Shown here: positions 2,177 to 59,692 of the stretch, piece after piece | How positions within the stretch are numbered: position 1 is the stretch's first letter | Layout of the letters: every line of letters begins with the position of its first letter | Source of the DNA: a virus | Length of the DNA stretch: 64,000 nucleotides | Direction: 5' to 3' (one strand) | Virus record (IMG/VR): IMGVR_UViG_3300042502_001732 | Span: 1 to 64,000 of that record | The notes under the pieces: generated by a model | Database searches by the model: none | The model's input: only the letters and a program-made list of their open reading frames with translations | Told to the model about the DNA's origin: nothing | Made by a program: the position numbers and the translations under genes

Positions 2177-3106
2177 ATGAGAAAATTGACCATTGGAATG
2201 GCGACTTATGATGATTATGATGGTGTTTATTTTACAATTCAATCAATTAGAATGTATCATAAAGAAGTTTTAAATGATATTGAATTTGTAATAATCGATA
2301 ATAATCCATCTGGAAATCATGCAAAACCAATCAGAGAATTGACTGATTGGATAAAAGAACCAGTTCAATACTTTCCATTTACTAAATTTAAATCAACCAC
2401 TGTAAAAAATAAAGTATTTGAAATAGCTGACACACCATATGTGATGTGTATTGATAGTCATGTATTATTAGAACCAGGAAGTTTAAAAAAATTAATAGAT
2501 TTTTATGATTCTGGTCTTGATAATGGCAATTTATTACAAGGTCCGCTTATATACGATGACTTATCAAACATCTCAACACACTTTGATTTAAAATGGAGCG
2601 GTCACATGTGGGGTACATGGGCTACTGATGATAAAGGAAAAGACATAGATTCGCCACCATTTGAAATTCCAGCACAAGGAATGGGTTTGTTTTCATGCAG
2701 AAAAAATTCTTGGTTGGGATTTAATAAAGAATTTCGTGGATTTGGCGGAGAAGAAGGATACATTCATGAAAAATACAGAAAAAACGGTAAACAAACGTTA
2801 TGTTTACCGTTTTTGAAATGGCTCCATAGATTTGGTAGACCATCAGGAGTTCCTTATGTTAATGATCTAAAAGATCGTTTTAGAAATTACATGATTGGAT
2901 TTATTGAACTTGATTTAGATACAACAGAACTTAAAAATCATTTTAGTCAAGCTTTATCTAAACAAGATATTGAAGCTATAGAGCAAGAAAGCATTCTTTT
3001 AAATAAAGAATTGGATAAAATTATAAATCCAACCAAAACTATAAAATGCATTGATGTTTGCTGTCAAGACAAAACACCCAATTCAATTTCTGTGTTAACA
3101 TCATGA
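2177..3106 (+). CDS. Family 2-like glycosyltransferase
   Basis: 309 residues with a GT-A nucleotide-sugar-binding N-terminus (LTIGMATYDDYDGVYFTIQS, then EFVIIDNN) and a central MCIDSHV segment in the place of the usual DxD metal site. A later GFGGEEGYIHEKYRKNGK segment resembles the acceptor-side ED motif of GT2 enzymes. Substrate unknown. It directly follows the adhesin gene behind a late promoter, so it may decorate virion proteins; that is inference. Its last 43 bp overlap a convergent small gene. Confidence 0.75.
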   Translation: MRKLTIGMATYDDYDGVYFTIQSIRMYHKEVLNDIEFVIIDNNPSGNHAKPIRELTDWIKEPVQYFPFTKFKSTTVKNKVFEIADTPYVMCIDSHVLLEPGSLKKLIDFYDSGLDNGNLLQGPLIYDDLSNISTHFDLKWSGHMWGTWATDDKGKDIDSPPFEIPAQGMGLFSCRKNSWLGFNKEFRGFGGEEGYIHEKYRKNGKQTLCLPFLKWLHRFGRPSGVPYVNDLKDRFRNYMIGFIELDLDTTELKNHFSQALSKQDIEAIEQESILLNKELDKIINPTKTIKCIDVCCQDKTPNSISVLTS

Positions 3107-3303
3107 AGCATTGCTGGATAGCGTTCTTCGATATAATGTTCAATAGCCACTGGTTTTAAAAAATTATCAACATCCAGCTTTAATTCTTCGGCTTTTCCTT
3201 GAATAAACTCAAGGGCTTCGATTAAACACGCCCATCTAGCGAAAGAAACGCTGCTCATTTGTTCAACTGTACCATTTGCTCGTTCGATTATTACTTTGTT
3301 CAT
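3064..3303 (-). CDS. Small hypothetical protein
   Basis: 79 residues, start ATG at 3303, mixed charge, no membrane segment or motif recognised. It follows the gene ending at 3313 on the same strand with a 9-bp gap, which supports it as the last gene of a three-gene minus-strand unit starting at 4141. Its 3' end runs 43 bp into the end of the convergent glycosyltransferase. Function unknown. Confidence 0.5.
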   Translation of the reverse strand: MNKVIIERANGTVEQMSSVSFARWACLIEALEFIQGKAEELKLDVDNFLKPVAIEHYIEERYPAMLHDVNTEIELGVLS

Positions 3304-3312
3304 GCCAGAATA

Positions 3313-3795
3313 TTATTCTAGTTTTTTATTAATCAAATTTTCAAAAATTGTATTATTATCAGCTGGTTGAGCAACCAATATACTGTCATAACTTATAAAA
3401 ATCTTATATTTTTCTTTACAATTTTTACATTCTGTTAAGTTTTCAGAATTTGGAAGAAGGATTCCTTGAAATAAATCACCACCACAATTACAAGGTATGT
3501 TTACAAACTGTTCATCTAATAATCTTTCATACTCTTGAATAACTTCATCTTTTTCATTTATCAATTCTAACAATTCCTCTGAATTTACATCATTGTTGTT
3601 GGAATTTTTGGTATTTTTAGTGAGATTTATTATAAAATGGATACCCGTTAGTAAAAAAATCAAAGAAATTAAAATAAAAAAAGAACTTTGGAATGGAATA
3701 GATAAAAAACTCAACCCATATGAAAATGCAGTTGTGAATATCAGACCAATACCAAAGACGAAAGAATGAAATTTAATATTACTTGTCATCAACAT
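3313..3795 (-). CDS. Membrane protein with C-terminal zinc-ribbon-like motif
   Basis: About 160 residues. The N-terminal half has two hydrophobic helices separated by a short loop, then a charged coiled-coil stretch (ELLELINEKDEVIQEYERLL). The C-terminal part carries CNCGG and CKNCKEK, a four-cysteine zinc-ribbon-like pair. The ATG at 3795 is preferred because AGGTGG lies 8 nt upstream, one of the few ribosome-site-like sequences in the window; GTG at 3807 and ATG at 3789 are alternatives. It overlaps the upstream gene by 17 bp. Function unknown. Confidence 0.6.
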   Translation of the reverse strand: MLMTSNIKFHSFVFGIGLIFTTAFSYGLSFLSIPFQSSFFILISLIFLLTGIHFIINLTKNTKNSNNNDVNSEELLELINEKDEVIQEYERLLDEQFVNIPCNCGGDLFQGILLPNSENLTECKNCKEKYKIFISYDSILVAQPADNNTIFENLINKKLE

Positions 3796-4141
3796 CCATT
3801 TTACCACCTATAGTGTGCTTGTCAAGGATATTATCAACGTTTTTAAAAAGATACATCACCAATTTGTCCATATTATTTTTTAAATTAGCCAATTCTTTTT
3901 TATCCTTGATATTATTAGATTCTAACAATGGTTCTATAATTTTTGATGCTTTTATAGCATTTTCTACTATCGTTGCGAAACAAATTGGCAATTCTCTCAA
4001 CTCATAAGGTAATAAATCTGGTGATTTATGTGTTTCTTTCTCTTCTTTTTTACGTTCTTTGAAATTTCTACTATCATTAAAATCAAAATTGATATTTGCC
4101 GATAAAAAACCAGTAGCGTATGGAGAATCTTTGCTTCGCAT
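3779..4141 (-). CDS. Hypothetical late protein
   Basis: 120 residues, hydrophilic, with a Lys/Glu-rich stretch near residue 45 and predicted helices after it. The start at 4141 (MRSKDSP) is chosen because ATAAATA lies 5 nt upstream of this ATG on the minus strand; a longer frame reaching 4231 would run into the divergent gene at 4170. Head of a three-gene minus-strand unit. No family recognised. Confidence 0.6.
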   Translation of the reverse strand: MRSKDSPYATGFLSANINFDFNDSRNFKERKKEEKETHKSPDLLPYELRELPICFATIVENAIKASKIIEPLLESNNIKDKKELANLKNNMDKLVMYLFKNVDNILDKHTIGGKMDVDDK

Positions 4142-4146
4142 ATTAT

Positions 4147-4163
4147 TATTTATCAAATAAATA
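4147..4163. promoter_or_regulatory. Divergent pair of late promoter elements
   Basis: ATAAATA on the minus strand (4147-4153) faces the ATG at 4141 with 5 nt between. ATAAATA on the plus strand (4157-4163) faces the ATG at 4170 with 6 nt between. The two elements are 3 bp apart and the two start codons only 28 bp apart, so neither mRNA can have a normal untranslated leader. Confidence 0.65.
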
Positions 4164-4169
4164 CTAAAT

Positions 4170-4607
4170 ATGAATATGAGCAATTTATACGCTAAGAGAT
4201 TCAAAATGATGTTAGAAGCTGATGAAGACATTTCATTAGAAAGAGACGCTATGGAAGCTTCATTGGATGATAATACAGACCCAGCTCAATTCGATGCTAA
4301 TATTGATGATATGGTGCAAGCGCAAACTGACATAGATGATGGCATTTCAAAAAGAAATGAGCAAATAGTAACTGAATTGCAAGGTTGGATTGATAATATT
4401 GATTCATTTTTGAAAATTCTTAATAGTGGAGATGGTGCAAGTATGCAATCCAGACTTGCAAATGCTGAACCCGACACTATTTTTGATAAAATGAAGCAGT
4501 CCCAACAAACTAAAATATCCAGAGTTGCATCAGACTTAGCTTCTCTTCATCAGGCATTCCTTGGATTTATGGCACAGACCAAAAATCCAAAATATAAATA
4601 TGTTTAA
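4170..4607 (+). CDS. Hypothetical late protein, possible capsid-internal protein
   Basis: 145 residues, acidic N-terminal half and mostly helical. The first 20 residues form a basic amphipathic stretch ending in MMLEADE, which resembles the N-terminal capsid-targeting/prohead-protease site (L/I/M-x-E) of T4 internal proteins. A late promoter immediately precedes it. The 3' end overlaps the end of the convergent primase gene by 4 bp. Function unknown; internal head protein is inference. Confidence 0.6.
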   Translation: MNMSNLYAKRFKMMLEADEDISLERDAMEASLDDNTDPAQFDANIDDMVQAQTDIDDGISKRNEQIVTELQGWIDNIDSFLKILNSGDGASMQSRLANAEPDTIFDKMKQSQQTKISRVASDLASLHQAFLGFMAQTKNPKYKYV

Positions 4608-5698: not shown

Positions 5699-5894
5699 AC
5701 TCAATTATACCTTCGTTTAAAGCAAAGTCAAACTTATCTAATGGTACTTTTCTATTTTCCATCAGCGGAGATGCTAAAAAATCATAATCATCTTCATTTT
5801 TTGATATCAAAATAAACATTTGACCAGCATAATCACCAGTTTGGACTGCGTATACATCTCCAAATCTTGGACCTTTTTTAAAAAAGTTAAACAT
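5628..5894 (-). CDS. Hypothetical protein (SH3/KOW-like N-terminus)
   Basis: 88 residues from ATG 5894, which sits 2 nt beyond the stop of the upstream gene. The segment RFGDVYAVQTGDYAGQMFIL has the beta-turn-beta look of small KOW/SH3-type barrels, but this is only pattern resemblance. It lies between gp45-side genes and the primase in a tightly packed operon and overlaps the primase start. Function unknown. Confidence 0.6.
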   Translation of the reverse strand: MFNFFKKGPRFGDVYAVQTGDYAGQMFILISKNEDDYDFLASPLMENRKVPLDKFDFALNEGIIEYVERLPKFVRNIARAQHEENEKN

Positions 5895-5896
5895 AA

Positions 5897-6190
5897 TCAA
5901 CCATCCATTATTTTTCTGTTCATAAAATCTCCAAATTCTTCTATGAATGCATTGTCCAAAGCTGATTTATCCAGCTTTGTTTTGCTCATAGTGAGCCTAA
6001 CTGGATTTCCATCTATATCATAACCTATCAACTTAAAACAAGTTAAAAATTCACTCAGCGATGCTGTAATGGCTTGATTTAATATTACTTTAGATGGTTT
6101 TTTTCTATCATCTTTTAATTTTATTTTTAATGAATCTATTAAAAGTTTTTTAATTTCATCATCTGAATAATTGTCATCCCCATTATCCAT
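5897..6190 (-). CDS. Hypothetical protein
   Basis: About 97 residues from ATG 6190; GTG at 6208 is an alternative start. Acidic N-terminus, then a helical basic stretch (LKIKLKDDRKKPSKVILNQ). No motif recognised. It lies 24 bp downstream of its neighbour and 2 bp from the next ATG in the replication operon, so it is co-transcribed with gp45, gp32 and primase. Confidence 0.6.
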   Translation of the reverse strand: MDNGDDNYSDDEIKKLLIDSLKIKLKDDRKKPSKVILNQAITASLSEFLTCFKLIGYDIDGNPVRLTMSKTKLDKSALDNAFIEEFGDFMNRKIMDG

Positions 6191-6214
6191 ATAATTATTT
6201 AATCTCACACAATA

Positions 6215-6562
6215 TTAAATTGAAGATTCTTCTTTTTTAAAATATGTGTGATTATCGTACTTCTGAGGAACCATTTTTTCCAACAGTGTAGTGATTATAA
6301 TTTCCATTGAACTGGTTTTTAAATTATAATTCTTTGGAAAGAACGATCCACCATCGTTTATTTCAAACATGAGGTCTCCTTTAAATTCTTTATTTTGATA
6401 ACATGTTATCATGACGCTTCTTCCGCCAGGATCTATCATAACACTCCATTTTCTAGGATCTTGCTGTCCATAATCTTTAAATAATTTAATTGCAATGAAT
6501 CCCGAATCGCGGAGTCTTTTTAAGAAATAACTAAAGGTTGATATTTTATTTTTATTATTCAT
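6215..6562 (-). CDS. Hypothetical protein
   Basis: 115 residues. The N-terminus (FSYFLKRLRDSGFIAIKLF) suggests an amphipathic helix followed by beta strands (WSVMIDPGGRSVMITCY). The start overlaps the end of the sliding-clamp gene by 4 bp (translational coupling). T4 has regA near this place, but the sequence does not resemble RegA. Function unknown. Confidence 0.6.
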   Translation of the reverse strand: MNNKNKISTFSYFLKRLRDSGFIAIKLFKDYGQQDPRKWSVMIDPGGRSVMITCYQNKEFKGDLMFEINDGGSFFPKNYNLKTSSMEIIITTLLEKMVPQKYDNHTYFKKEESSI

Positions 6563-7281
6563 TTTACTAAACTTGATATAATATAATTTAGATAAACTTT
6601 TTCAAAATTCAAGTTTATATTAGCAACTCCAAACTTTGTATTGATTTTAAAATTAAAATCATTATCTTCTATGAAAGTTAAAAGACGTAAATTATCTAAA
6701 TTTATAATAAAATCAGATAATTCAAAATCTACATTTCCAGATGTTATACATATGACATCACTATTTGATGATGTTTTGTCTTGCAAACTCCAATATAATT
6801 GACCATCATTTGTATATATGTATAGTTTATTAGAATCTGAAAATGCAGAATTTGTCTTTAACAAATTCTTTATAAAATTTTTAGAAACATTAAATTCTAT
6901 ATCATAAGATATGCTTTTAATTTTCTCCAAACTCATTTTTGTTTTTGCAATGAGTCCATCTTCATATAGATGATATTTAAATTTTATCTTATTGCCTCTG
7001 TATTCTAAATTATTATTGTTTAAAATTAAAGTGATATCATCCGAACCATCGCACATTTTTAAAGCGCTTGATAGTTTAGAAACTGATGGGATGTTTAATA
7101 CTTTTTCCTCTTCAAAATCGATTTCTGTTCTTCCCCACAATATTAAAGATGCATCTTCACTGTTTGATATAAAATAAATTTCGCCATCCTTAATATTAAG
7201 AATGGCGGTATCATTTATTTTAGATAATGATTCTAATAAAAAGAGAAAGTTACTTTTATTAAGAGTTATCTTCTGATTCAT
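6559..7281 (-). CDS. 45: Sliding clamp, T4 gp45-like
   Basis: 240 residues (T4 gp45 is 228). Similarity to gp45 is low but the layout fits: alternating strands, and a C-terminal segment FIINLDNLRLLTF followed by closing strands comparable to gp45 FIINMANMKM. In T4 the trimeric clamp tethers gp43 polymerase and, with gp55 and gp33, activates late promoters. Its place between the gp32 gene and the primase gene supports the call. It overlaps both neighbours (22 bp and 4 bp). Confidence 0.75.
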   Translation of the reverse strand: MNQKITLNKSNFLFLLESLSKINDTAILNIKDGEIYFISNSEDASLILWGRTEIDFEEEKVLNIPSVSKLSSALKMCDGSDDITLILNNNNLEYRGNKIKFKYHLYEDGLIAKTKMSLEKIKSISYDIEFNVSKNFIKNLLKTNSAFSDSNKLYIYTNDGQLYWSLQDKTSSNSDVICITSGNVDFELSDFIINLDNLRLLTFIEDNDFNFKINTKFGVANINLNFEKVYLNYIISSLVK

Positions 7282-7702
7282 GTTGTATTAATGTGAGTAA
7301 TTTATCAATTTTTTTATTTAAATCTTCTAATATTTTATTCTGTTTTCTTAACAATTCATTCGTCACTTCTTGTTCAGATTTATTGAACTTTAATTCTAAT
7401 TGATTCTCATCAACTGTAGATTGTGGTTGAATTTGAACTGGTTGTGGTGTTTGAGGCATCACAGGTTGATATGTTTGAGCAATTTCAATAGACTGAGGTG
7501 ATATTACTGGCGGTTGACGCACTTGAGAGGATCTAAAATCTCTCTCAAGTGCAGTTTTAATACCGCTAGATATCCCGCCATCCCTCATGCCATCAACTTT
7601 CGGTTGCTGATCATTGAAATACATTGAGTCTATATCCTTACCCAATGCAAACATTGGACCAGCAAATTCAATCAATGCTTGTTTTTCTTCGGGAGTCAAC
7701 AT
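7259..7702 (-). CDS. Hypothetical protein with C-terminal coiled coil
   Basis: 147 residues. A Pro/Gln-rich, probably disordered middle (PVMPQTPQPVQIQPQ) separates a short N-terminal helical region from a C-terminal coiled coil (LLRKQNKILEDLNKKIDKLL). The gene sits 2 bp after gp32 and overlaps the clamp gene by 22 bp, so it may be a replisome accessory protein; this is from position only. Confidence 0.6.
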   Translation of the reverse strand: MLTPEEKQALIEFAGPMFALGKDIDSMYFNDQQPKVDGMRDGGISSGIKTALERDFRSSQVRQPPVISPQSIEIAQTYQPVMPQTPQPVQIQPQSTVDENQLELKFNKSEQEVTNELLRKQNKILEDLNKKIDKLLTLIQHESEDNS

Positions 7703-45249: not shown

Positions 45250-46446
45250 GTGATTAAATATTCTTATCATCGTGAGCAGTTAGATTTATTGATGCTTTTT
45301 ACATCAGCATTCGATGATACGTTTGTATATAGATATGATTTCAATACCAAAACGCCAGAATCTAAAATTCAAGTTAGATATATTCATGGTCCAAAACAAC
45401 GAGTAATCCATGACATAGTAACAAAAGAGAAAAATCTCACATTACCAGTGGTTTCAATAGAACAAACTGGATTATCGAGAGATCCAGATAGAGTAGTTCA
45501 CAAACATCAAAATATCTATAGACCATTATTAGGAAATGTTTCAAAAGTTGGTAAAATTCCAATGCCTATACCTGTAACTATGGATGTCAAAGTATCTATA
45601 ATTGCAAAATATAAAGAAGATATTGATCAAATTATTCAAAATTTTGCAACCGTTTGCAATCCCTATTTTGTTGTTTCTTGGAAAATTCCAGAAGAATTTG
45701 GATTAGATTTTACTGATGAATTGAGAGTTCAAATCGAATGGGCTGGAAATATTTCATATACAACTCCAACAACATTAGGAATAGATGACAAATATAGAAT
45801 AAGTGCTGATACAACTTTCACTATCAAAGGTTGGCTTTTTCCATCTTTACAAAATCCAGAAGCTCCCATTTATGTTGTCAATACTAAATTTATAAATCAA
45901 AATTTAGCATCAAGAGTAACAGGATACGACGATTATCCATCGTTATCTGCGTCATATGTTGAATCGGATACTGTTATGGTATCGGCATATCCAGAATTTA
46001 CTAATTTTTATTATTCTGTATCTGGTGATATAATACCCTTATTAGCACCTGCAAGATTTAATTATACAGTAAGAAATAATTTCTTGATATTAGGAAAGAG
46101 ATTTGGGTATAATAATACTTGGTATTTGAGTTCTTCAAAACAGGAGTTTTTATTAGACTTTGTAGAAATTAAAACTGCCAAGTTCCCAATCATATCAGCT
46201 TATAAAATTCCTGAGAATTTAATAACTACTTATACAGATAATAATGTAACTATTTCAATTCCAGAAAACTTTTTATCAGGATCATCTGGAGATTTTACTA
46301 TAGTAACTGCCAACAGTGCTGGATGGACATCTTCCAAATATAAATTTTCTATAGATGACATTAATAATAAAAATATGTATATTCAACCAGATTTGATTAG
46401 TACATATTATCAACCAAACAGTGCAAATACATATATTAGACCTTAA
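45250..46446 (+). CDS. 15: Tail terminator/sheath stabiliser, T4 gp15-like
   Basis: 398 residues (T4 gp15 is 272). The first ~200 residues follow gp15: KYSYHREQLDLLMLFTSAFD, VRYIHGPKQRVIHD, PMPIPVTMDVKVSIIAKYKE with DQIIQNFATVCNPYF, and TTFTIKGWLFPS. gp15 caps the tail tube and sheath and joins the neck. The C-terminal ~190 residues are extra and strand-rich, perhaps an exposed decoration domain. GTG start chosen from the promoter spacing. Confidence 0.72.
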   Translation: MIKYSYHREQLDLLMLFTSAFDDTFVYRYDFNTKTPESKIQVRYIHGPKQRVIHDIVTKEKNLTLPVVSIEQTGLSRDPDRVVHKHQNIYRPLLGNVSKVGKIPMPIPVTMDVKVSIIAKYKEDIDQIIQNFATVCNPYFVVSWKIPEEFGLDFTDELRVQIEWAGNISYTTPTTLGIDDKYRISADTTFTIKGWLFPSLQNPEAPIYVVNTKFINQNLASRVTGYDDYPSLSASYVESDTVMVSAYPEFTNFYYSVSGDIIPLLAPARFNYTVRNNFLILGKRFGYNNTWYLSSSKQEFLLDFVEIKTAKFPIISAYKIPENLITTYTDNNVTISIPENFLSGSSGDFTIVTANSAGWTSSKYKFSIDDINNKNMYIQPDLISTYYQPNSANTYIRP

Positions 46447-46454: not shown

Positions 46455-46913
46455 ATGTCAGATATTGTAGTAAGCCAACATATTGATGATCTTTTAAGAA
46501 GTTCAAGCGCTTCTGGATCTAGAAATGTATTAAATGTTCCTAGTGTATCGGAAGTTCCAACTATTCAAAGTTTCAACGCACTTTCTGAATCTGTAGCTAG
46601 AATAGATGGATCTCTTATAAACGTTCTTAGTCTCAGTGGAGATACTTATACATTACAATTATCTAATTTAGGAGCTTACATAAGAAAATTTCATAGTTCT
46701 CCTCATACTATTATCATACCTAATTCATCTGATGTTTCGTTTCAGGTTGGTAGTACGTTTGTAATTAGAAACACAAGTTCAAGCAGCTTAACCATATCAA
46801 GCGGACCTACAGTATCATTAAGTTATTTTGCAGACTTGAGTGCTAATATATTAGATCAATATGCTTCTGCTCAAATAGTTTGTGTTGGAACAGATAACTG
46901 GGATATAATTTAA
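46455..46913 (+). CDS. Virion protein, fibre-associated (hypothetical)
   Basis: 152 residues, Ser/Thr-rich and strand-rich (HTIIIPNSSDVSFQVGSTFV, then IRNTSSSSLTISSG), the pattern of short tail-fibre or fibre-base beta-helix domains. It ends 1 bp before the ATG-bearing frame of the large propeller protein, so the two are co-translated late products. Function inferred from composition and place. Confidence 0.6.
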   Translation: MSDIVVSQHIDDLLRSSSASGSRNVLNVPSVSEVPTIQSFNALSESVARIDGSLINVLSLSGDTYTLQLSNLGAYIRKFHSSPHTIIIPNSSDVSFQVGSTFVIRNTSSSSLTISSGPTVSLSYFADLSANILDQYASAQIVCVGTDNWDII

Positions 46914-46914
46914 T

Positions 46915-49884
46915 ATGAGAATATCAACAGCTTCTAGATACAAGTTTTTAAAAGATTATAGAATAGGAGTTCCTGAATTATTGTCAGAAACATCCTATAG
47001 TGGTAATATTATTTTTAATGAAAGTGATTTAAGAAAAAGCATTGGATGGTTAGCTAATACCGCTGTAAGACAAGTCGGTACCACTTTCACTGGATTGTTT
47101 TTTCTCGATAGACAGGGTGATGCTGTATCAATTAATACTGAGGGTGATGTTGTTGCTGTAGGAGCTTCAAATGGTAGAACAACAGATATCGGATATACCA
47201 GAATATTTAGACTTACTTCTTATTCTGGTAATGGGTCTTGGGGTCAAATAGGGCAAACTATTGATGGTGAGGCATCGGGAGATTTCAGTGGTTTTTCTGT
47301 TTCTTTAAACAATATTGGTGATAGAGTAGCTATAGGAGCAAGGGGGAATGATAATATTGGTGGAGTTGATAGTGGACATGTGAGAGTATATCAATTAAGT
47401 ACATTTGGTAGTAATAATTCCTGGGTTCGGTTGGGTCAAGATATCGACGGGGAAGCTGCGGCAGATCAATTTGGATCTACAATAGATTTGAATGGTGAAG
47501 GGAATATATTAGCAACGGGTACACCTTTTAATGATAGTTATGGTTCTAGTTCTGGTCGCGTAAAAATATATCAATTAAGTTCATTCGATGTTAATAATTC
47601 TTGGGTGCAAATTGGACAAAATATAGACGGTGAAAGTGGAGATAGTGCAGGAACAAACGTGTCCTTAAATAACGCAGGTGATAGAATAGCTGTATCCTTC
47701 CCTTACCGCGCAGTTAACGGCTTTAATAATTCTGGAATAGTTAAGGTTTTTAATTTAAGCGCATATAGTGGCAATTATACTTGGGTTCAAGTAGGGCAAG
47801 ATATAACAGGTATTGCAGAAGAGTATGGATACTTCGGTATCGGTGGTATATCAATGAATTATAGTGGTGATAGGATAGCTATAGGTTCTAATCAAAGTGG
47901 TAATGGATTAGTAAGTGTTTATGAATTAAGTGGTAATAATTGGTTACAGGTAGGCCAGTTTATAACTGGGCAGCAGACTAATGAGAGTTTTGGTAATGAA
48001 ATATCTATTAATGATGCTGGAGATAAAATAGCAGTGACTTCAAATCTTTATGTATCTGATAGTGGATATCAAAGTTGCTTGAGATTATATCAATTAAGTT
48101 CTTACAACAATTTAAACACTTGGGTGCAAGAAGGATTAACTTTAGATTCTAACACAAATAACGGTGAATTTAATAAAATTAAGATGAATGGTTCTGGTGA
48201 TACATTTATTGTAGGTGGTCCATTTGCAACTTCACGTGGTAATGCGAAAGTATTTAAAACCTATTCGCAAAAAACAGATAATTTATATACAGGATTTAAT
48301 GATGATCTTATACAGGCTTCTAGACCAAGATGGAAATATCCAAACAATTTAAATATATATGGAGGTTGGTATAATAATTATACAAATAGCTTTTTAACAG
48401 ACCTGCAAAATATAACATTTTCTGCTCCTACAAGTTCGAATTTTTTTACGGAAATACCAGCGTTAACAGCTATAAATCAAGCTCAGGGTATAAAGTGGGT
48501 AGAAATAGCAACTAAAAAAAATACTTCAATTACATTATCTTCAACTCCATCTTCAGCAATATATTTTAAAAGAAATGGATTTAATATTAGATTAAAAACA
48601 ACACCTCAAGTATCATGGATTTATAATTCGAATTTATATAAAGATACTGCACTAGGTTTTTCTCTTGGTGTTGAATACGCGCCAGATATAGTAGTCAATA
48701 ATATTTTTTGTAATCTAGCTCCATTAAACACCACCTTTTCTGCCTTTAGCGCAAATTATGATAACTGGTTTGTAAATTTTTCTTCGGAAATTCAACCCAT
48801 TTCTGGTGTTGATAGATGGCTTCTAAACAATACAAATTACATTAATTCAAAAACCATAACTCTAACAGCCAACAACCAATATATACGCTATCAACCACTA
48901 GGCATCTCTTATAAAAACTTATCATCTTTATCTGCATCTAGTGAATTTAATGTATATGTAAATTCAAATATATTAGATTTTGGTTTAAAATCAACATCAT
49001 CGCTACGATCAAGACTTACAAGCGTCACTCCATTAACATCTACAAGAAATGTATTTACAACTTACAACCGAACAACTAATACCTTTATAAGAAATCCAAA
49101 TCTTTGGTGTGCTGATTTAACAGATCAATTAACAGCTCTTGTTGTTCAAAAATTGGGAGAAGCTGTATTTTCATACGGCGGTACTCTAATAACACCAAGA
49201 CACTTATTATATGTTCAACATGCTTTTCCTAGAACTGACAGAGTAAGATTTGTAAGATCAGACAATACTGTTATTTCAGCAGCGCCATTAGCATCTTCTG
49301 ATAGTACAACGTATAAAAATGATTTTCCAATAGCATCGCTCTCCTCAGTAGATAGTCTATATACAGATATTGGTATTGTTGTACTTGATAGAGATGTATC
49401 TTTATCTGGTATTCATGTAATGCCGATAGCAGCGATTACTCCAACAGAAAGAGAAATATTAAATCAACAATTTATACCTACACTTTTGTGTACGCAAGCT
49501 CCAGGTAGATCTACTGGGTCATCAAATCCAAATGCGGTTAGTGCGAGCGATATTCAGATGACTATAAGTTCAACTAACTTTTTAAATATGACCACAGCAT
49601 GGGAATCTCAAAGCGCAAACCCGTTTTTAAATTGGGATGTGATGGGAGCTGGAGGATCAGGGTATACTATTTGGGACGGTGACAGTGGCAATTCTCATTT
49701 ATTATTCTGTAATGATAAACTTTATGTTTATAGCATTACTTTTTCCTTTACAGGTAGAGGTGCTATTGTTTCAGCACTTTCGGGAGCTATAAACTACTTA
49801 ATAGACAAAGCAGATCAATTAGCGGGTATTACTACTAATATGAAACCAACATATTACACTATAGAGCAGATTGCGAATAGATGA
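46915..49884 (+). CDS. Fibre/adhesin with seven-repeat beta-propeller and trypsin-like domain
   Basis: 989 residues. From about residue 60 to 465, seven imperfect repeats of ~60 residues (pattern: VSLNNxGDRVAIG, then GxVRVYQLS, then SWVQxGQDIDGE) resemble FG-GAP-type propeller blades. After a strand-rich middle, the C-terminus holds GGTLITPRHLLYVQHAF (H769), SLYTDIGIVVLD (D818) and WDGDSGNSHLL (S924), in the order and spacing of trypsin-fold proteases (His57, Asp102, Ser195). An attached protease on a receptor-binding protein could cut host surface proteins or the fibre itself; activity is inferred. Confidence 0.72.
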   Translation: MRISTASRYKFLKDYRIGVPELLSETSYSGNIIFNESDLRKSIGWLANTAVRQVGTTFTGLFFLDRQGDAVSINTEGDVVAVGASNGRTTDIGYTRIFRLTSYSGNGSWGQIGQTIDGEASGDFSGFSVSLNNIGDRVAIGARGNDNIGGVDSGHVRVYQLSTFGSNNSWVRLGQDIDGEAAADQFGSTIDLNGEGNILATGTPFNDSYGSSSGRVKIYQLSSFDVNNSWVQIGQNIDGESGDSAGTNVSLNNAGDRIAVSFPYRAVNGFNNSGIVKVFNLSAYSGNYTWVQVGQDITGIAEEYGYFGIGGISMNYSGDRIAIGSNQSGNGLVSVYELSGNNWLQVGQFITGQQTNESFGNEISINDAGDKIAVTSNLYVSDSGYQSCLRLYQLSSYNNLNTWVQEGLTLDSNTNNGEFNKIKMNGSGDTFIVGGPFATSRGNAKVFKTYSQKTDNLYTGFNDDLIQASRPRWKYPNNLNIYGGWYNNYTNSFLTDLQNITFSAPTSSNFFTEIPALTAINQAQGIKWVEIATKKNTSITLSSTPSSAIYFKRNGFNIRLKTTPQVSWIYNSNLYKDTALGFSLGVEYAPDIVVNNIFCNLAPLNTTFSAFSANYDNWFVNFSSEIQPISGVDRWLLNNTNYINSKTITLTANNQYIRYQPLGISYKNLSSLSASSEFNVYVNSNILDFGLKSTSSLRSRLTSVTPLTSTRNVFTTYNRTTNTFIRNPNLWCADLTDQLTALVVQKLGEAVFSYGGTLITPRHLLYVQHAFPRTDRVRFVRSDNTVISAAPLASSDSTTYKNDFPIASLSSVDSLYTDIGIVVLDRDVSLSGIHVMPIAAITPTEREILNQQFIPTLLCTQAPGRSTGSSNPNAVSASDIQMTISSTNFLNMTTAWESQSANPFLNWDVMGAGGSGYTIWDGDSGNSHLLFCNDKLYVYSITFSFTGRGAIVSALSGAINYLIDKADQLAGITTNMKPTYYTIEQIANR

Positions 49885-49946: not shown

Positions 49947-51779
49947 ATGGCAGGGTCTGACAGTTCCACAACAGCAAATTCAAATAGAAATTTTGTATCC
50001 AGAGATGGGAGAAGTGCAACTTTTGACAGATCCATGACTTCTTATTTGAATTCAAGAAGTACAAATTCTTATGATATTTTAGATTCTGACGAAAATAAAA
50101 ATACAAAATACAAGTATTTCAAAAAGGTTGGAATGCGAAGAGCGGAAGCAATTTCCAAAAATTCAATAGCATTAAGCAACGATTTTAATAACACTGCATA
50201 TGGAATGATGCATAAAGATTCATCATTCGGTGATGTGATGTATGCAACCGTTTCAGAAGATAAACCAGGAAGATTAAGAGATTATAGATCAATAGCTGCA
50301 TATTCTGAAGTTTCAGATGCATTAGATGAAATTTGCGACGAGTGTGTAAATTATGATGAAAATTCAAATATATTGAAACTTTTATTTGTAAATGATAATT
50401 TAAAGTCTATTGAAAAAGAAAAAATAGCCGACGAATTTGATAAATTTATAGATCATTTTGATTTTAAAAATAAAGGATGGAGATATTTTAGACAATTCTT
50501 AATAGAAGGTGAACTGTATTTTGAAAATATAATCCACGAAGATTATACAAAACAAGGCATTTTAGCTGTTCAAAATTTACCAGCCGATAATATAGATCCT
50601 GTATATGCTAATATACAAAACATGTTGATTAAAGGATTTTTATATAAAAAACCTGTTTTTGATCCAAACGATCCGAAAAAAGTTGAAAGATTTGAATATA
50701 TACCATTTGAAGAAAATCAAATTATATATGTCAACAACGAAGCTTACAATGAAACAAAAGAATTTGTAGTTCCATTTGTTGAAAATTGCAGACGCGCATA
50801 TCGTCAATTATCAATGATTGAAGATAGTGTTGTTATACATAGATTAGTACACGCTCCTCTTCGTTTTATGTTTAATGTGGACGTTGGTAGAATGCCAGTT
50901 CCACAAGCAGAATCATATCTTCGTAAATTACAACAACAATATTGGTCTACAAAAACATTTGATTCTGATCAAAATGATATTGTTAAAAAATATAATCCAC
51001 AGTCAATGTTGGATAGTTATTGGTTTGCAAAACGTCAAGGTCAAGAAGCTACATCAGTTCAAACTTTCGGAGGACAACCAAGCGATGGCAATTTAGATGT
51101 TTTGGATTGGTTCCTTAGAAAGCTTTATCGTTCTTTAAAAGTACCAACAAGTAGATTGAAAGATGATAGCGGATTATCAGACGGTTCTCAAATTTTAAAT
51201 GAAGAATTGAAATTTGCAAAAATGATAGTTCGCCAACAACAAAAATTTGCAGCAGCTATTAAAAAAGGATTTATTACTCACATCAAACTTCGTGGAATGT
51301 TCGACGAATATGATGTCGAAGAACAAAACATCGATATTTCTTTTGTTCCACCTGGAACATTTTTCGAAATGAGAGAAAATCAAAAGAAACAATTGAAAGT
51401 TGAAATGTATGGTAGTGTTATGAATACACAAAATATTTCTGACACTTTTGCAAAGAAAAAATATTTGGGCTGGAGTGATAAAGATGTGTTGGCTGATAGA
51501 GAATTTAGACGATCTGATGCTGCATTTACTTGGGAACTTCAACAAATTTCATCAGCTGGACCAAATTGGAAAGCACAATTATTACAAGGTGCTGCAGAAC
51601 CAGCGGCGGCTGGAGAAGCTCCAGAAATGGGCGGCGGTATTGGTGGTGGAATGCCTCCTGATTTTGGAGGAGGTCCAGCGGCAATTGGTGGAGAGACAGG
51701 AGCACCACCTCCTCAAGAAGAACCATTTGGAGGAGAAACTAATACAGAACCACCACCTGGAGAAGGAACCCCAGCTTAA
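49947..51779 (+). CDS. 20: Portal protein, T4 gp20-like
   Basis: 610 residues (T4 gp20 is 524). The portal core is clear: RSIAAYSEVSDALDEICDEC, GWRYFRQFLIEGELYFENII, HRLVHAPLRFMFNVDVGRMP, WFLRKLYRSLKVPTSRLK and VPPGTFFEMRENQKKQLKVE. The dodecamer forms the DNA channel at the head vertex and nucleates head assembly. The last ~60 residues are a Gly/Pro/Ala-rich tail, probably disordered. Its stop overlaps the end of a convergent small gene by 4 bp. Confidence 0.93.
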   Translation: MAGSDSSTTANSNRNFVSRDGRSATFDRSMTSYLNSRSTNSYDILDSDENKNTKYKYFKKVGMRRAEAISKNSIALSNDFNNTAYGMMHKDSSFGDVMYATVSEDKPGRLRDYRSIAAYSEVSDALDEICDECVNYDENSNILKLLFVNDNLKSIEKEKIADEFDKFIDHFDFKNKGWRYFRQFLIEGELYFENIIHEDYTKQGILAVQNLPADNIDPVYANIQNMLIKGFLYKKPVFDPNDPKKVERFEYIPFEENQIIYVNNEAYNETKEFVVPFVENCRRAYRQLSMIEDSVVIHRLVHAPLRFMFNVDVGRMPVPQAESYLRKLQQQYWSTKTFDSDQNDIVKKYNPQSMLDSYWFAKRQGQEATSVQTFGGQPSDGNLDVLDWFLRKLYRSLKVPTSRLKDDSGLSDGSQILNEELKFAKMIVRQQQKFAAAIKKGFITHIKLRGMFDEYDVEEQNIDISFVPPGTFFEMRENQKKQLKVEMYGSVMNTQNISDTFAKKKYLGWSDKDVLADREFRRSDAAFTWELQQISSAGPNWKAQLLQGAAEPAAAGEAPEMGGGIGGGMPPDFGGGPAAIGGETGAPPPQEEPFGGETNTEPPPGEGTPA

Positions 51780-53730: not shown

Positions 53731-55719
53731 ATGAGGATTTTTACGGAAAATGTCAATTTTATCTCCACATCGGGGGATAAAAATATTCTTCAAATAGAAA
53801 ATTATGAAGAAGTATTTTTTGATGTTTATGAAATATCAATAAATGGTAAAAAATTCATTTCTGAAAAAATAGGAGAATATGAAAAAAAACCTATTGTAAA
53901 AATACCCGTGGAAATCGACGGGATTAAAAAAGAATACCCATTTATATTAAACGAAGGTAAATTTCAAATAGTGTTCAATGAACAAAATGAATTGATTCAA
54001 GAATCTGTAGAAGAAAATATTCCAGCGATAACTGAAGAATTTGATGAGGTTGAAGAATATTCCAAAGAATCGTTTGAAAAAGAACTCATAGATATTCAAG
54101 AAAAGAAAAATAAAATTCTGGAATATATAGAAAATGTTAAAAAAACTGCAAAACAGCAAACTGATGAATATAATAAAAACCAGTTAAAAATTCTAGAACA
54201 GCAAAAAGAAGAAAATAAAAAAGAATTAAAATCTTTATTGGAATCTTCTAAGCAATCATGGTTTGAAGAATTTGTCGATGTATCAGATAAAATTAAAAAA
54301 GAATTATTTGATAGATTGAATATTAATAATTCTGAAATTTATGAATCAATTGATTTGAAATTAGAAATCATTTCTGATGATTTTAAGAAATTAATTGAAG
54401 AAGATTTTTCAAATACCGAAAAAATATTTGAAAATAAAATAAAAGAATTAATAACAGAAATTTATAATAATCAGGTTATCAAAGTCATCAACGATGGTAT
54501 TGATAAAATTTCACAACAATCAGAAGTTTCTTTTGAAAATATAAAAAATGATTTTGATTTGGCTCTTTCTGAAAAAGCAACCAGCGTTGATTTAAAAAAT
54601 GTCGAAGATAAGTTAGAAACTGAAATTTTATCAGTACAAAAAGAATCAATTGAATTACACGATTTAATTTCAAAAAGCGTATCATCAAATAAAAAATCAA
54701 TAACATATATTGAAAATAAAATTGATGAAACTCAAAAAGAATTAAAAGAGAACATCATAAAAATAATTGATGAAAAGATCGAAGAAAACGAAGATAGCAT
54801 AACAACATATTACAATGAAAAACTTGACGTTGTTGAAAATAAACTTATAGATCTTTCAGACGAAAACAGACAGTATTTCATTGGATTGATAAACGAAAGC
54901 AGAGATAATCTCTTAAAAGAAATCAAATCCATTAAAGAAAATAAAGCAATAGAATATATTGTTGAAAATAAAAAAACTGGGGAAAAGAAAGAAATTGATA
55001 TTAATTCAATAAAAAGCGATCTCCAGAAAGAAATATCAAATAAAATCTCAAATGAGATAATCTCTCTTAGAAAATATACAGCATATCATGGCGGCGGTGG
55101 AGGTACTGTAGCTCAACAATTTGCAGATGGTGGAACCATGAACGGATCATTGAATATCAATGGTCAAATATTAAGTGGTGGTGTTGATATAGCTACATTA
55201 TTTACAATTGGGGGAACTTCAAATTTCGCAACTTATGATTTTGTAAATAATAATTTTTTAAATTTATCAGGAGGTATAATTACTGGAAGTACACGCTTCA
55301 ACAGTAATGTAACAATTTACGGTAATCTTACCGCTACTGGCACTACAACATTTAACAATACGATATTCTCTGTTACAAGTGCATTAAGTGTTGTTCATAT
55401 AGGTGAGGGTCCAGCAGTGTGGGTAGGTAATAGCGGCCTTGGTGATATAGCTTCTTTCAATGATATAGATACAGGGCTTGAAGTATTACACGTTGGCGGT
55501 AGTAACGGCGCATTCCCCAATGTCGGCGTAAAGACTAGTACACCTAATGTTGATTTTACGGTTAATGGTCAAATTAGCGCTTCCAATACAATTTGGAGTT
55601 CTGGTGGTAATTCTAATAACTGGAATAGTACTTATAGTATGGTAAACGCTTTAAGTGCTACATGGAGTTTAGGTCCTGATGACTCAAATACAATTATAGG
55701 TCTTTCAATCTTTTTATAA
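53731..55719 (+). CDS. Tail fibre protein with long coiled coil
   Basis: 662 residues. An N-terminal globular part of about 110 residues is followed by a long Glu/Lys heptad region (to about residue 445), a Gly hinge (HGGGGGTVAQ) and a C-terminal strand-rich tip with repeated NGSLNINGQ, YGNLTATGTTTFNN and VNGQISASNT motifs typical of phage fibre shafts before a peptidase S74-type end, which is missing here. Probably a trimeric fibre; attachment and receptor unknown. Confidence 0.78.
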   Translation: MRIFTENVNFISTSGDKNILQIENYEEVFFDVYEISINGKKFISEKIGEYEKKPIVKIPVEIDGIKKEYPFILNEGKFQIVFNEQNELIQESVEENIPAITEEFDEVEEYSKESFEKELIDIQEKKNKILEYIENVKKTAKQQTDEYNKNQLKILEQQKEENKKELKSLLESSKQSWFEEFVDVSDKIKKELFDRLNINNSEIYESIDLKLEIISDDFKKLIEEDFSNTEKIFENKIKELITEIYNNQVIKVINDGIDKISQQSEVSFENIKNDFDLALSEKATSVDLKNVEDKLETEILSVQKESIELHDLISKSVSSNKKSITYIENKIDETQKELKENIIKIIDEKIEENEDSITTYYNEKLDVVENKLIDLSDENRQYFIGLINESRDNLLKEIKSIKENKAIEYIVENKKTGEKKEIDINSIKSDLQKEISNKISNEIISLRKYTAYHGGGGGTVAQQFADGGTMNGSLNINGQILSGGVDIATLFTIGGTSNFATYDFVNNNFLNLSGGIITGSTRFNSNVTIYGNLTATGTTTFNNTIFSVTSALSVVHIGEGPAVWVGNSGLGDIASFNDIDTGLEVLHVGGSNGAFPNVGVKTSTPNVDFTVNGQISASNTIWSSGGNSNNWNSTYSMVNALSATWSLGPDDSNTIIGLSIFL

Positions 55720-56103: not shown

Positions 56104-58773
56104 ATGAGTATTCGTTACGGAAATAAAGTTGGACCGTTAGTCTCACGTAAGTCTTCTTTTTTTAAAAAGGATAGATTTGATCGACTGCGTATAAAACAAC
56201 CAACAGCAGCAGCAACTCCAGCCACACCGTCTCCATGGGTTCGTCCTGCTGATTGGTTGACAATGCCGACTATAATATCTTCAGAGCAAAAAATAGCTTT
56301 GTTGATGCCAGTGTTTCCGCAACAATCTAACTTTCTCGCTTTTACAATATCTGGAGCATATACAGTTGATTGGGGTGATGGTGTAACAGAAAATGTTGCA
56401 TCTGGTGTTAAAGCTCAACATGAATACTCTTATACCGACCCAGATTTAAATGCCACCGTTGCAAGTGATGGTTATAAAATGGCAGTTGTAGTCATTACTC
56501 CTCAAGCTGGTCAAAATATAACAAGTGTAAACTTTAACCAAAAGTATGCACAAGCAGGATCTACATTTCCCGATTCATCTCCTATATTAGAAATAGCTTT
56601 ATCTTGCCCAAGTTTAACAGGTTTAACTCTTGGTAATACAACCGCTTCTTTGGCTTTTTGTAAAAATTTAGTTAGTTTCACTGGAGTCAATATAGGATTA
56701 TTAACTGACTTATCTAGTTCATTTGCAAATTTAGTTTCATTAAAAAATGTATCTTTTAATGATCTTACTAATATTACTAATATGAGTAGTATGTTTCGGA
56801 GTTGCTCTTCTCTTACAACAGTACCGCTTTTTAATACAGAGAATGTTATTAATATGACTAGTATGTTTCAGAGTTGCACTGCTCTTACAAGCGTACCTCT
56901 GTTTAATACATCAGCTGTTACTAGTATGAGTGGTATGTTTAGTAGTTGCACTGCTCTTACAAGCGTACCTCTGTTTAATACATCAGCTGTTACTAGTATG
57001 AGTAGTATGTTTAATGGCTGCACTACTCTTACAACTGTACCGCTTTTTAATACAGGGGCCGTTACTAATATGGGTAGTATGTTTAATAGTTGTACTACTC
57101 TTACAACTGTACCGCTTTTTAATACAGGGGCCGTTACTAATATGGGTAGTATGTTTGCCTCTTGTTCCCGTCTTCAGACTGTACCATTATTTAACACGCA
57201 AAATGTTACTACTATGGGAGGTGCTTTTCCACCAAATGGAATGTTTTCTGGCTGTAGATCACTTATAACTGTACCACTATTCAATACAGTAGCTGTTACT
57301 GATATGGGTGGTATGTTTTTTAGTTGCTTTTCTCTTACAAGTGTACCGCTTTTTAATACAGTAGCTGTTACTAGGATGTCTTTTATGTTTGCTAGTTGTT
57401 CCTCACTTACAAGTGTACCACTATTCAATACAGCAGCTGTACAATTCATAAATAATATGTTTGCTAGTTGTTCCTCACTTACAACTGTACCACTATTCAA
57501 TACAGCAGCTGTTACTAATATGAATAGTATGTTTAATAGTTGCACTACTCTTACAACCGTACCGTTATTCAATACATCAGCTGCTACTGATATGGGTAGT
57601 ATGTTTTCTAGTTGCACTACTCTTACAACCGTACCGTTATTCAATACAGTAGCTGTTACTAGTATGAGTGGTATGTTTAGTAGTTGCACTGCTCTTACAA
57701 GCGTACCGTTATTCAATACAGTAGCTGTTACTAGTATGAGTAGTATGTTTAGTAGTTGCACTGCTCTTACAAGCGTACCTCTGTTTAATACATCAGCCGT
57801 ACAATTGATGAATAGTATGTTTAGTGGTTGCTCTTCTCTTACAAGTGTACCGTTATTCAATACAGCAGCTGTTACTAATATGAATAGTATGTTTTCTAAT
57901 TGCACTACTCTTACAAGTGTACCTCTGTTTAATACAGCAGCTGTTATTGATATGTCTAGTATGTTTAATGGTTGTACTTCTCTTACAACTGTACCACTGT
58001 TTAATACAGCAGCTGTTACTAGTATGAGTAATATGTTTAACGGTTGTACTTCTCTTACAACTGTACCGTTATTAATTTCAGGTGCTGGAACAAATACAGG
58101 AAAGTTTGGTGGTATTTTTGCAAGTTGTATATCACTTACAAGAGCAGCATTGAATGGTTCTGAATATTCAATAAGTTATAGTGGTTGTAAATTATCAAAA
58201 GAAGAATTAGAATCTATATTCAATTATCTAGACACAATAGGTGCTGCTTCTCAAACAATAACAGTATCAAATAATTGGGGAGCGCCGACACCTGTAACTC
58301 TTACAGGAACTACAACTGTTGGTAGCACAACAATAAGCATGGCAAACACCACTGGTATTGCTGTAGGTATGCAAATTACAGGAACAGGATCACCTCTTAC
58401 ATCAACTAGAGCAGTAACATTTACCGATGCAGGTGATTTAGTCAACCTTGCAAGTCATGGATTAAGTAATGGAGATGAAGTTTCTTTTGCAACTAGAGTA
58501 ACAACGACTGGTATTGTTATTAATACGATTTATTATGTAGTTAATGCTACGGCAGGTACATTTCAAGTAGCAGCAACTCTAGGTGGTCCAGCATTAGCAT
58601 TAACGACAAACGGTTCTGGAACCTTACGCTATCGTACACAGGTTGTATCAATTAACCCCAACGTAAGCATCACAGTATCACGACAAATGGCTGCGGGGGG
58701 TGCAAATAGTTTAACATTTAGACAATTAAGAACTGGAACAGCCCTATTAAAAGGCTGGGCAGTAACAGCATAA
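56104..58773 (+). CDS. BspA-type leucine-rich-repeat adhesin
   Basis: 889 residues. After a basic N-terminus there is a PKD-like domain (YTVDWGDGVTENV), then about 17 copies of a 24-residue repeat, consensus LTSVPLFNTxAVTxMxxMFxSCT, the BspA/DUF285 type seen in bacterial surface proteins. A phage-type C-terminal domain follows (SHGLSNGDEVSF, IYYVVNATAGTFQVA). The stacked repeats would make a rigid solenoid; host-receptor binding is the likely role. A long antisense frame over the repeats is an artefact. Confidence 0.8.
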   Translation: MSIRYGNKVGPLVSRKSSFFKKDRFDRLRIKQPTAAATPATPSPWVRPADWLTMPTIISSEQKIALLMPVFPQQSNFLAFTISGAYTVDWGDGVTENVASGVKAQHEYSYTDPDLNATVASDGYKMAVVVITPQAGQNITSVNFNQKYAQAGSTFPDSSPILEIALSCPSLTGLTLGNTTASLAFCKNLVSFTGVNIGLLTDLSSSFANLVSLKNVSFNDLTNITNMSSMFRSCSSLTTVPLFNTENVINMTSMFQSCTALTSVPLFNTSAVTSMSGMFSSCTALTSVPLFNTSAVTSMSSMFNGCTTLTTVPLFNTGAVTNMGSMFNSCTTLTTVPLFNTGAVTNMGSMFASCSRLQTVPLFNTQNVTTMGGAFPPNGMFSGCRSLITVPLFNTVAVTDMGGMFFSCFSLTSVPLFNTVAVTRMSFMFASCSSLTSVPLFNTAAVQFINNMFASCSSLTTVPLFNTAAVTNMNSMFNSCTTLTTVPLFNTSAATDMGSMFSSCTTLTTVPLFNTVAVTSMSGMFSSCTALTSVPLFNTVAVTSMSSMFSSCTALTSVPLFNTSAVQLMNSMFSGCSSLTSVPLFNTAAVTNMNSMFSNCTTLTSVPLFNTAAVIDMSSMFNGCTSLTTVPLFNTAAVTSMSNMFNGCTSLTTVPLLISGAGTNTGKFGGIFASCISLTRAALNGSEYSISYSGCKLSKEELESIFNYLDTIGAASQTITVSNNWGAPTPVTLTGTTTVGSTTISMANTTGIAVGMQITGTGSPLTSTRAVTFTDAGDLVNLASHGLSNGDEVSFATRVTTTGIVINTIYYVVNATAGTFQVAATLGGPALALTTNGSGTLRYRTQVVSINPNVSITVSRQMAAGGANSLTFRQLRTGTALLKGWAVTA
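56811..58080 (+). repeat. 72-bp tandem repeats of the BspA-type region
   Basis: Units of 72 bp (24 codons) recur about 17 times, sharing words like CTTACAA-GTACC and TTTAATACA. Several neighbouring units are almost identical at DNA level, for example those starting near 56881 and 56953. One unit carries an in-frame insertion (near 57220). Confidence 0.85.
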
Positions 58774-59026: not shown

Positions 59027-59692
59027 ATGTTAAAATTAAGATTGATTGCGGAGAACCCAGACCTCTTAGAAAGATTTGAAATTGTTGAAGAACAAGACAA
59101 TTTAAAAAAAGGCAGCTCTTTATATGTAAAAGGTCCATTCATAGGATGTAATCAAGTTAATAAAAATCGTCGCATGTATAATTTAGATGAAACACGCGAA
59201 GAAGTTAATCGTTATATCAGTGAAATGGTAACTCCTGGCAGAGCTATGGGAGAACTCAATCATCCATCAAGTGCTGAAGTTAATCTTGAAAGAGCATGTC
59301 ATTTAGTCACTGAACTTTATGAAAGCGACAATGCTTTTTTCGGCAAAGCTAAAGTTTTATCTACACCAATGGGTCAAATTTTAAGAGCATTGATAAATGA
59401 TGGTGTTAAAGTTGGAATGTCCACAAGAGCATTGGGATCATTGCAAGAAGAATCATCATACAATCTTGTAAAAAACATGAAGCTCGTAGCTATTGATGCA
59501 GTAGCAGATCCATCATTTCCAAAAGCATTTGTTAATGGTATTTTAGAATCAAAACAATGGGTAGTTTCTGATAATGGCAAGTATGAAGAAATTTATGAAA
59601 ATTTTGAAAAATCAATAGGTAAATTACCTAAACATGATATGGGTTCTTATCTTAAAGATCAAATTTTAAAATTTATTAATTCACTTAGTTAA
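59027..59692 (+). CDS. 21: Prohead protease, T4 gp21-like
   Basis: 221 residues (T4 gp21 is 212). The herpes-assemblin-like catalytic set is visible: GELNHPSS (H79), VGMSTRALG (S132) and AIDAVADPS (D157/D161). It cleaves scaffold, internal proteins and gp23 after Glu in L/I-x-E sites. Immediately upstream of the core and capsid genes as in T4. Confidence 0.93.
   Translation: MLKLRLIAENPDLLERFEIVEEQDNLKKGSSLYVKGPFIGCNQVNKNRRMYNLDETREEVNRYISEMVTPGRAMGELNHPSSAEVNLERACHLVTELYESDNAFFGKAKVLSTPMGQILRALINDGVKVGMSTRALGSLQEESSYNLVKNMKLVAIDAVADPSFPKAFVNGILESKQWVVSDNGKYEEIYENFEKSIGKLPKHDMGSYLKDQILKFINSLS

Follow-up and report, generated by a model that had tools for sequence, protein, structure and literature searches.

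Most of the enzymes known from phage tails break down glycans or peptidoglycan, the tail depolymerases being glycan lyases and hydrolases. Peptidase S74, the intramolecular chaperone of endosialidases and tailspikes, is a protease domain found at the C terminus of a phage attachment protein; it relies on a Ser-Lys dyad in a fold different from that of trypsin and removes itself. The gp21-like head maturation proteases (phrog_207) are phage proteases encoded within structural gene clusters. Serine proteases of family S1 (PA clan; PF00089 Trypsin, PF13365 Trypsin_2) and FG-GAP propellers (FG-GAP_2, PF14312, and those of integrin alpha) are both known kinds of module, but their union in a phage appears to be undescribed: we found no description of the domain analysed below, of a phage propeller-protease union or of the family's size in literature searches whose coverage left out most subscription journals.

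The window considered here, a stretch of 64,000 nucleotides from a T4-like phage whose full record runs to 143.9 kb, contains an open reading frame in which a chymotrypsin-fold serine protease is joined to a seven-repeat propeller. This architecture and the gene span had been put forward in the original prediction; the span is exact, open from ATG to stop, and the architecture is strongly supported by profile searches, fold prediction and the invariance of the catalytic triad. Like S74, the protease domain lies at the C terminus of a putative phage attachment protein, but its triad is the H-D-S of the trypsin fold, and Pfam gave no S74 match; like the gp21-like enzymes it is encoded in a structural cluster, but it belongs to an unrelated family. 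The features of the locus are as follows.

45250-46446, plus strand: gp15-like tail sheath stabiliser (context; Pfam and PHROGs searches)
46455-46913, plus strand: 152-residue ORF directly upstream of the 989-residue ORF, with weak matches to PHROGs that have no assigned function
46915-49884, plus strand: ORF of 989 residues, ATG to stop, comprising propeller, linker and trypsin-fold protease
47092-48270, plus strand: seven-bladed FG-GAP-like propeller, residues 60-452 (repeats, homology to P0005, 28 predicted strands); repeats at residues about 51-108, 109-169, 170-229, 230-289, 290-342, 343-402 and 403-452
48271-49029, plus strand: middle region or linker, residues 453-705, without a confident fold in AlphaFold2
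49030-49881, plus strand: trypsin-fold serine protease domain, residues 706-989 (profile, predicted fold, triad invariance)
49219-49221, plus strand: codon of catalytic H769, invariant in 81 sequences
49366-49368, plus strand: codon of catalytic D818, invariant in 81 sequences
49678-49689, plus strand: GDSG motif, residues 922-925, with the codon of catalytic S924 at 49684-49686
49947-51779, plus strand: gp20-like portal protein (context; Pfam and PHROGs searches)
59027-59692, plus strand: gp21-like head maturation protease (phrog_207, E 1.1e-56)

The propeller-protease gene thus has the gp15-like gene and the 152-residue ORF, perhaps encoding a partner of its product, on one side and the portal gene on the other. 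Three other IMG/VR contigs are 100% identical at the locus over 9.8-12.9 kb, and a fourth has its first part; since those three carry the identical locus, the fusion cannot be put down to misassembly, and we reject a chimera.

Taken alone, the window protein gave no match in the PDB by phmmer, no significant match in PHROGs and, in Pfam, a sub-threshold FG-GAP_2 hit but no protease; neither Trypsin nor Trypsin_2 matches its domain above the Pfam cut-off. The family search was opened by a remote relative in L004. A profile built from a 23-row alignment, whose members are 22-36% identical to the window domain, retrieves trypsin-family PDB chains (factor Xa, bacterial trypsins) at E 1.7e-5, and their His, Asp and Ser align in register with those of the family; Pfam Trypsin and Trypsin_2 give weak matches in 3 and 2, respectively, of 23 relatives. 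The residues named beforehand as the triad, H769, D818 and S924, do sit in LLYVQHAF, YTDIGIVVLD and WDGDSGNS, in chymotrypsin-like order and spacing (49 residues from His to Asp, 106 from Asp to Ser) and in register with factor Xa; in the numbering of the 290-residue domain they are H70, D119 and S225. All three are invariant throughout the 23 rows, in which only two of the window domain's four His, two of its 17 Asp and one of its 30 Ser are so conserved, giving a chance of about 0.002 that three pre-named residues would all be invariant given their residue types.

Loss of the triad in homologues would have spoken against a working protease, and among 81 distinct sequences we found none: H769, D818, D923 and S924 are invariant in 81/81, a set fetched with the peptide patterns RNPNLWC, GTLITPRH, PRHxLYxx, DQEEKA and TVWTxGGA, none of which includes a catalytic residue, and which relatives lacking all five patterns would escape. 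G922 is kept in 76 of the 81. Clustering 29 domains at 60% identity yielded 19 clusters. Close pairs of the domain are under purifying selection, with dN/dS of 0.13-0.23 in six of seven pairs and 0.59 in the remaining one.

Structure prediction and comparison with trypsin-fold proteins recovered the trypsin fold, so that neither of the refuting outcomes named beforehand came up. The AlphaFold2 model of the window domain is of moderate confidence (pLDDT 68.7, pTM 0.78, with domain residues 163-224 poorly predicted), and within that limit it matches S1 proteases in Foldseek at E 6.4e-7, probability 1.00 and TM about 0.5. We regard the catalytic, trypsin-type fold of the C-terminal domain as near certain. 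Triad order and spacing, the GDSG motif, the profile match and the predicted fold are those of S1 peptidases, but the window domain lacks a Pfam match, has VQHAF in place of TAAHC and lacks Asp189; it is phage-borne and propeller-fused, and its upstream RNPNLWC motif is specific to its own family. The epithet 'trypsin-like' therefore holds for the fold, on profile, prediction and triad, but not for specificity: position 189 of the S1 pocket, six residues before S924, is Thr in the window protein and varies across the family, so that trypsin specificity is not expected.

At the other end of the chain, the seven FG-GAP-like repeats of about 60 residues that had been described are present, starting near residues 51, 109, 170, 230, 290, 343 and 403; the first of these has no W and was positioned by eye. 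The window protein scores 16.3 bits against FG-GAP_2, below the Pfam cut-off of 23, while its relative P0005, which aligns to the N terminus at 36% identity (E 9e-32), scores 85 bits. The full-chain AlphaFold2 model has seven four-stranded blades, 28 strands in all, in a ring closed by strand 60-66, with block-mean pLDDT mostly between 70 and 96. Its structural matches are led by Gbeta and other WD40 propellers and also include integrin alpha. Seven repeats of this length, FG-GAP_2 homology and seven predicted blades are thus shared with the FG-GAP_2 and integrin alpha propellers, but the window repeats fall below the Pfam cut-off and are missing the calcium-binding DxDxDG loop seen in integrin blades, for which P0001 gave no match. 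Between the two modules, a search for relatives of residues 453-705 returned only the identical contigs, and a visual resemblance of this region to the N-terminal part of L014 gave no homology on comparison.

We asked how widely the protease domain occurs. Family loci number 37 in viruses and eight in bacterial genomes, and a further viral scan gave 104 loci, of which 80 were kept; IMG/VR thus holds over 100 loci with the domain, and more copies lie in PVC-group bacteria and prophages. Of 50,697 deposited phage records, a single one, which is metagenomic, yielded a detectable copy; a search at E 1e-5 found no P0005-like FG-GAP protein in any of them, and tblastn of the window protein against INPHARED gave no match. 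A genome scan with P0002 returned no relatives; one with A3 found them. The bacterial genomes that carry the domain (L042-L048) all belong to Verrucomicrobiota, Kiritimatiellota or Lentisphaerota, and may hint at the hosts of related phages. Some of these copies look chromosomal and secreted (L045-L047), with signal-peptide-like N termini in the chromosomal relatives L046-L048, and for this reason the domain cannot be called virion-specific.

The domain keeps varied company. The tree places the window domain in a group with L009/L011 and L013/L014 (98/97 support), which L017 then joins. It is internal in L027, L028 and L037 and C-terminal in others; it stands nearly alone, in proteins of 285-330 residues, in L009, L011 and L016, and follows N-terminal regions without a family match in L013, L021/L023, L024 and L038. 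In L035 the part before it matches a minor tail protein weakly (phrog_290, E 0.014) and includes a Pro-Glu linker, and in L039 (4043-5347) it is fused behind a BspA/DUF285-type repeat region, so that the protease has the propeller and BspA modules as alternative partners. Phages of the L011 type encode a stand-alone protease, two small ORFs and then an FG-GAP protein, the two modules that are fused in the window phage. The C-terminal half of L028 also looked propeller-like, without confirmation from Pfam. The L019 protease (5863-7407) differs from the near-identical L009/L011 in an insertion of about 180 residues that separates the catalytic His from the Asp and may be a lectin-like module.

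The placement of the window gene between the gp15-like and portal genes has counterparts in these relatives. The protease gene neighbours neck, gp15 and terminase genes in L024, a terminase gene in L017, tail fibre or tail protein genes in L023 and L038, a baseplate wedge gene of opposite orientation in L030, tape measure genes in L037 and prophage L044, and, in MW202510, genes for internal virion proteins and for a lyase. Signal-peptide-like starts, odd for tail-module genes, occur in genes beside the tape measure in L037 (3280-7083) and in the L048 prophage protease (2670-4448). The name 'fibre protein' given to the window product draws on this virion-gene neighbourhood; no PHROG or Pfam match assigns the protein to a fibre family or fold, and its sequence does not establish the name.

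The best explanation, and one that we consider somewhat probable, is that the protein is an adhesin associated with the particle and that its protease is active and cleaves a protein of the host surface; catalysis, particle location and host-surface substrate are all things we infer. The product of the ORF would be a late protein of a T4-like myophage, probably associated with the particle, its propeller serving as a binding module that touches particle or host and its C-terminal 280 residues acting as a serine endopeptidase of the PA clan (S1, trypsin-fold) that is catalytically competent via H769-D818-S924. The protease would cut a protein on the host surface—a receptor, S-layer, pilus or matrix protein—and cleavage would aid adsorption or release. 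This role would be the proteolytic counterpart of a tail depolymerase: the proposed likeness is that an enzyme close to the attachment apparatus breaks down a barrier on the surface, but by cutting protein, not glycan. Support comes from the invariance of the triad and D923, the profile and fold matches and the purifying selection, from virion-gene neighbours in several unrelated phages, and from the separate FG-GAP and protease genes of L011-type phages together with the varied, partly adhesive partners, such as the BspA-type region in L039. Against it stand the moderate pLDDT and TM, the missing fibre family match, the apparently chromosomal and secreted relatives in PVC bacteria and the fact that FG-GAP propellers also act as structural or assembly modules.

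Those same structural clusters, found in several phages, would also suit a protease that cuts its own chain or adjacent tail and fibre proteins during particle maturation, as proteolytic maturation is known for other phage proteins, but we think such a role rather unlikely. Stand-alone versions exist, the domain may be C-terminal or internal and so offers no constant cut geometry, and the head of the window phage is served by a separate gp21-like protease, whose presence led us to reject a role in head maturation. The original prediction had named a protein receptor, removal of host surface proteins and self-cleavage as possible meanings of the protease; we favour cutting at the host surface, and self-cleavage is the least favoured because of the stand-alone forms. 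It seems quite unlikely, too, that the protein works outside the particle, as an intracellular or lysis-released effector that cuts host or competitor proteins: late genes are often not structural, the window protein matches no fibre family and L046-L048 look secreted, but the window protein itself has no evident signal peptide and virion genes flank the domain in several unrelated phages. Very improbable is a trypsin fold kept only for binding; the oxyanion-hole Gly is Tyr in 5/81 sequences and the window GDSGNS lacks the usual Pro, yet invariance of H, D, D and S in every one of the 81 is expected only under selection for catalysis.

Over a hundred other phage sequences have the domain, and those compared never lose its catalytic residues; beyond the adhesin-protease proposed for the window phage, this suggests that a means of cutting proteins belongs to the particle or attachment proteins of some phages. 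More tentatively, there may be a widespread and unannotated phage-particle family of trypsin-fold proteases, exchangeable units that are fused to adhesive modules (FG-GAP propellers, BspA-type repeats) or lie next to them in uncultivated T4-like phages, podovirus-type phages and PVC-group prophages, forming the protein-cutting counterpart of polysaccharide depolymerases. A conserved protease module in many uncultivated phage lineages would point to protein receptors or surface layers as a barrier in their hosts, an idea testable with a single purified domain, and would be a source of new phage-borne proteases.

Three further proteins in the window have repetitive or fibre-like sequences. At 64-2163 lies a 699-residue repeat protein whose sequence contains runs of threonine and recurring YYTGSFEIGT-LYTDADLT units; it had no match in PHROGs. 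A 662-residue protein at 53731-55719, fibre-like by eye, starts with a long stretch resembling a coiled coil and is beta-rich in its C-terminal part; it likewise found no match in a PHROGs search. Amid the T4-like head genes, positions 56104-58773 encode an 889-residue leucine-rich repeat protein of BspA/DUF285 type (Pfam E 1.9e-81), a predicted second adhesin-like protein of the same late cluster as the propeller-protease.
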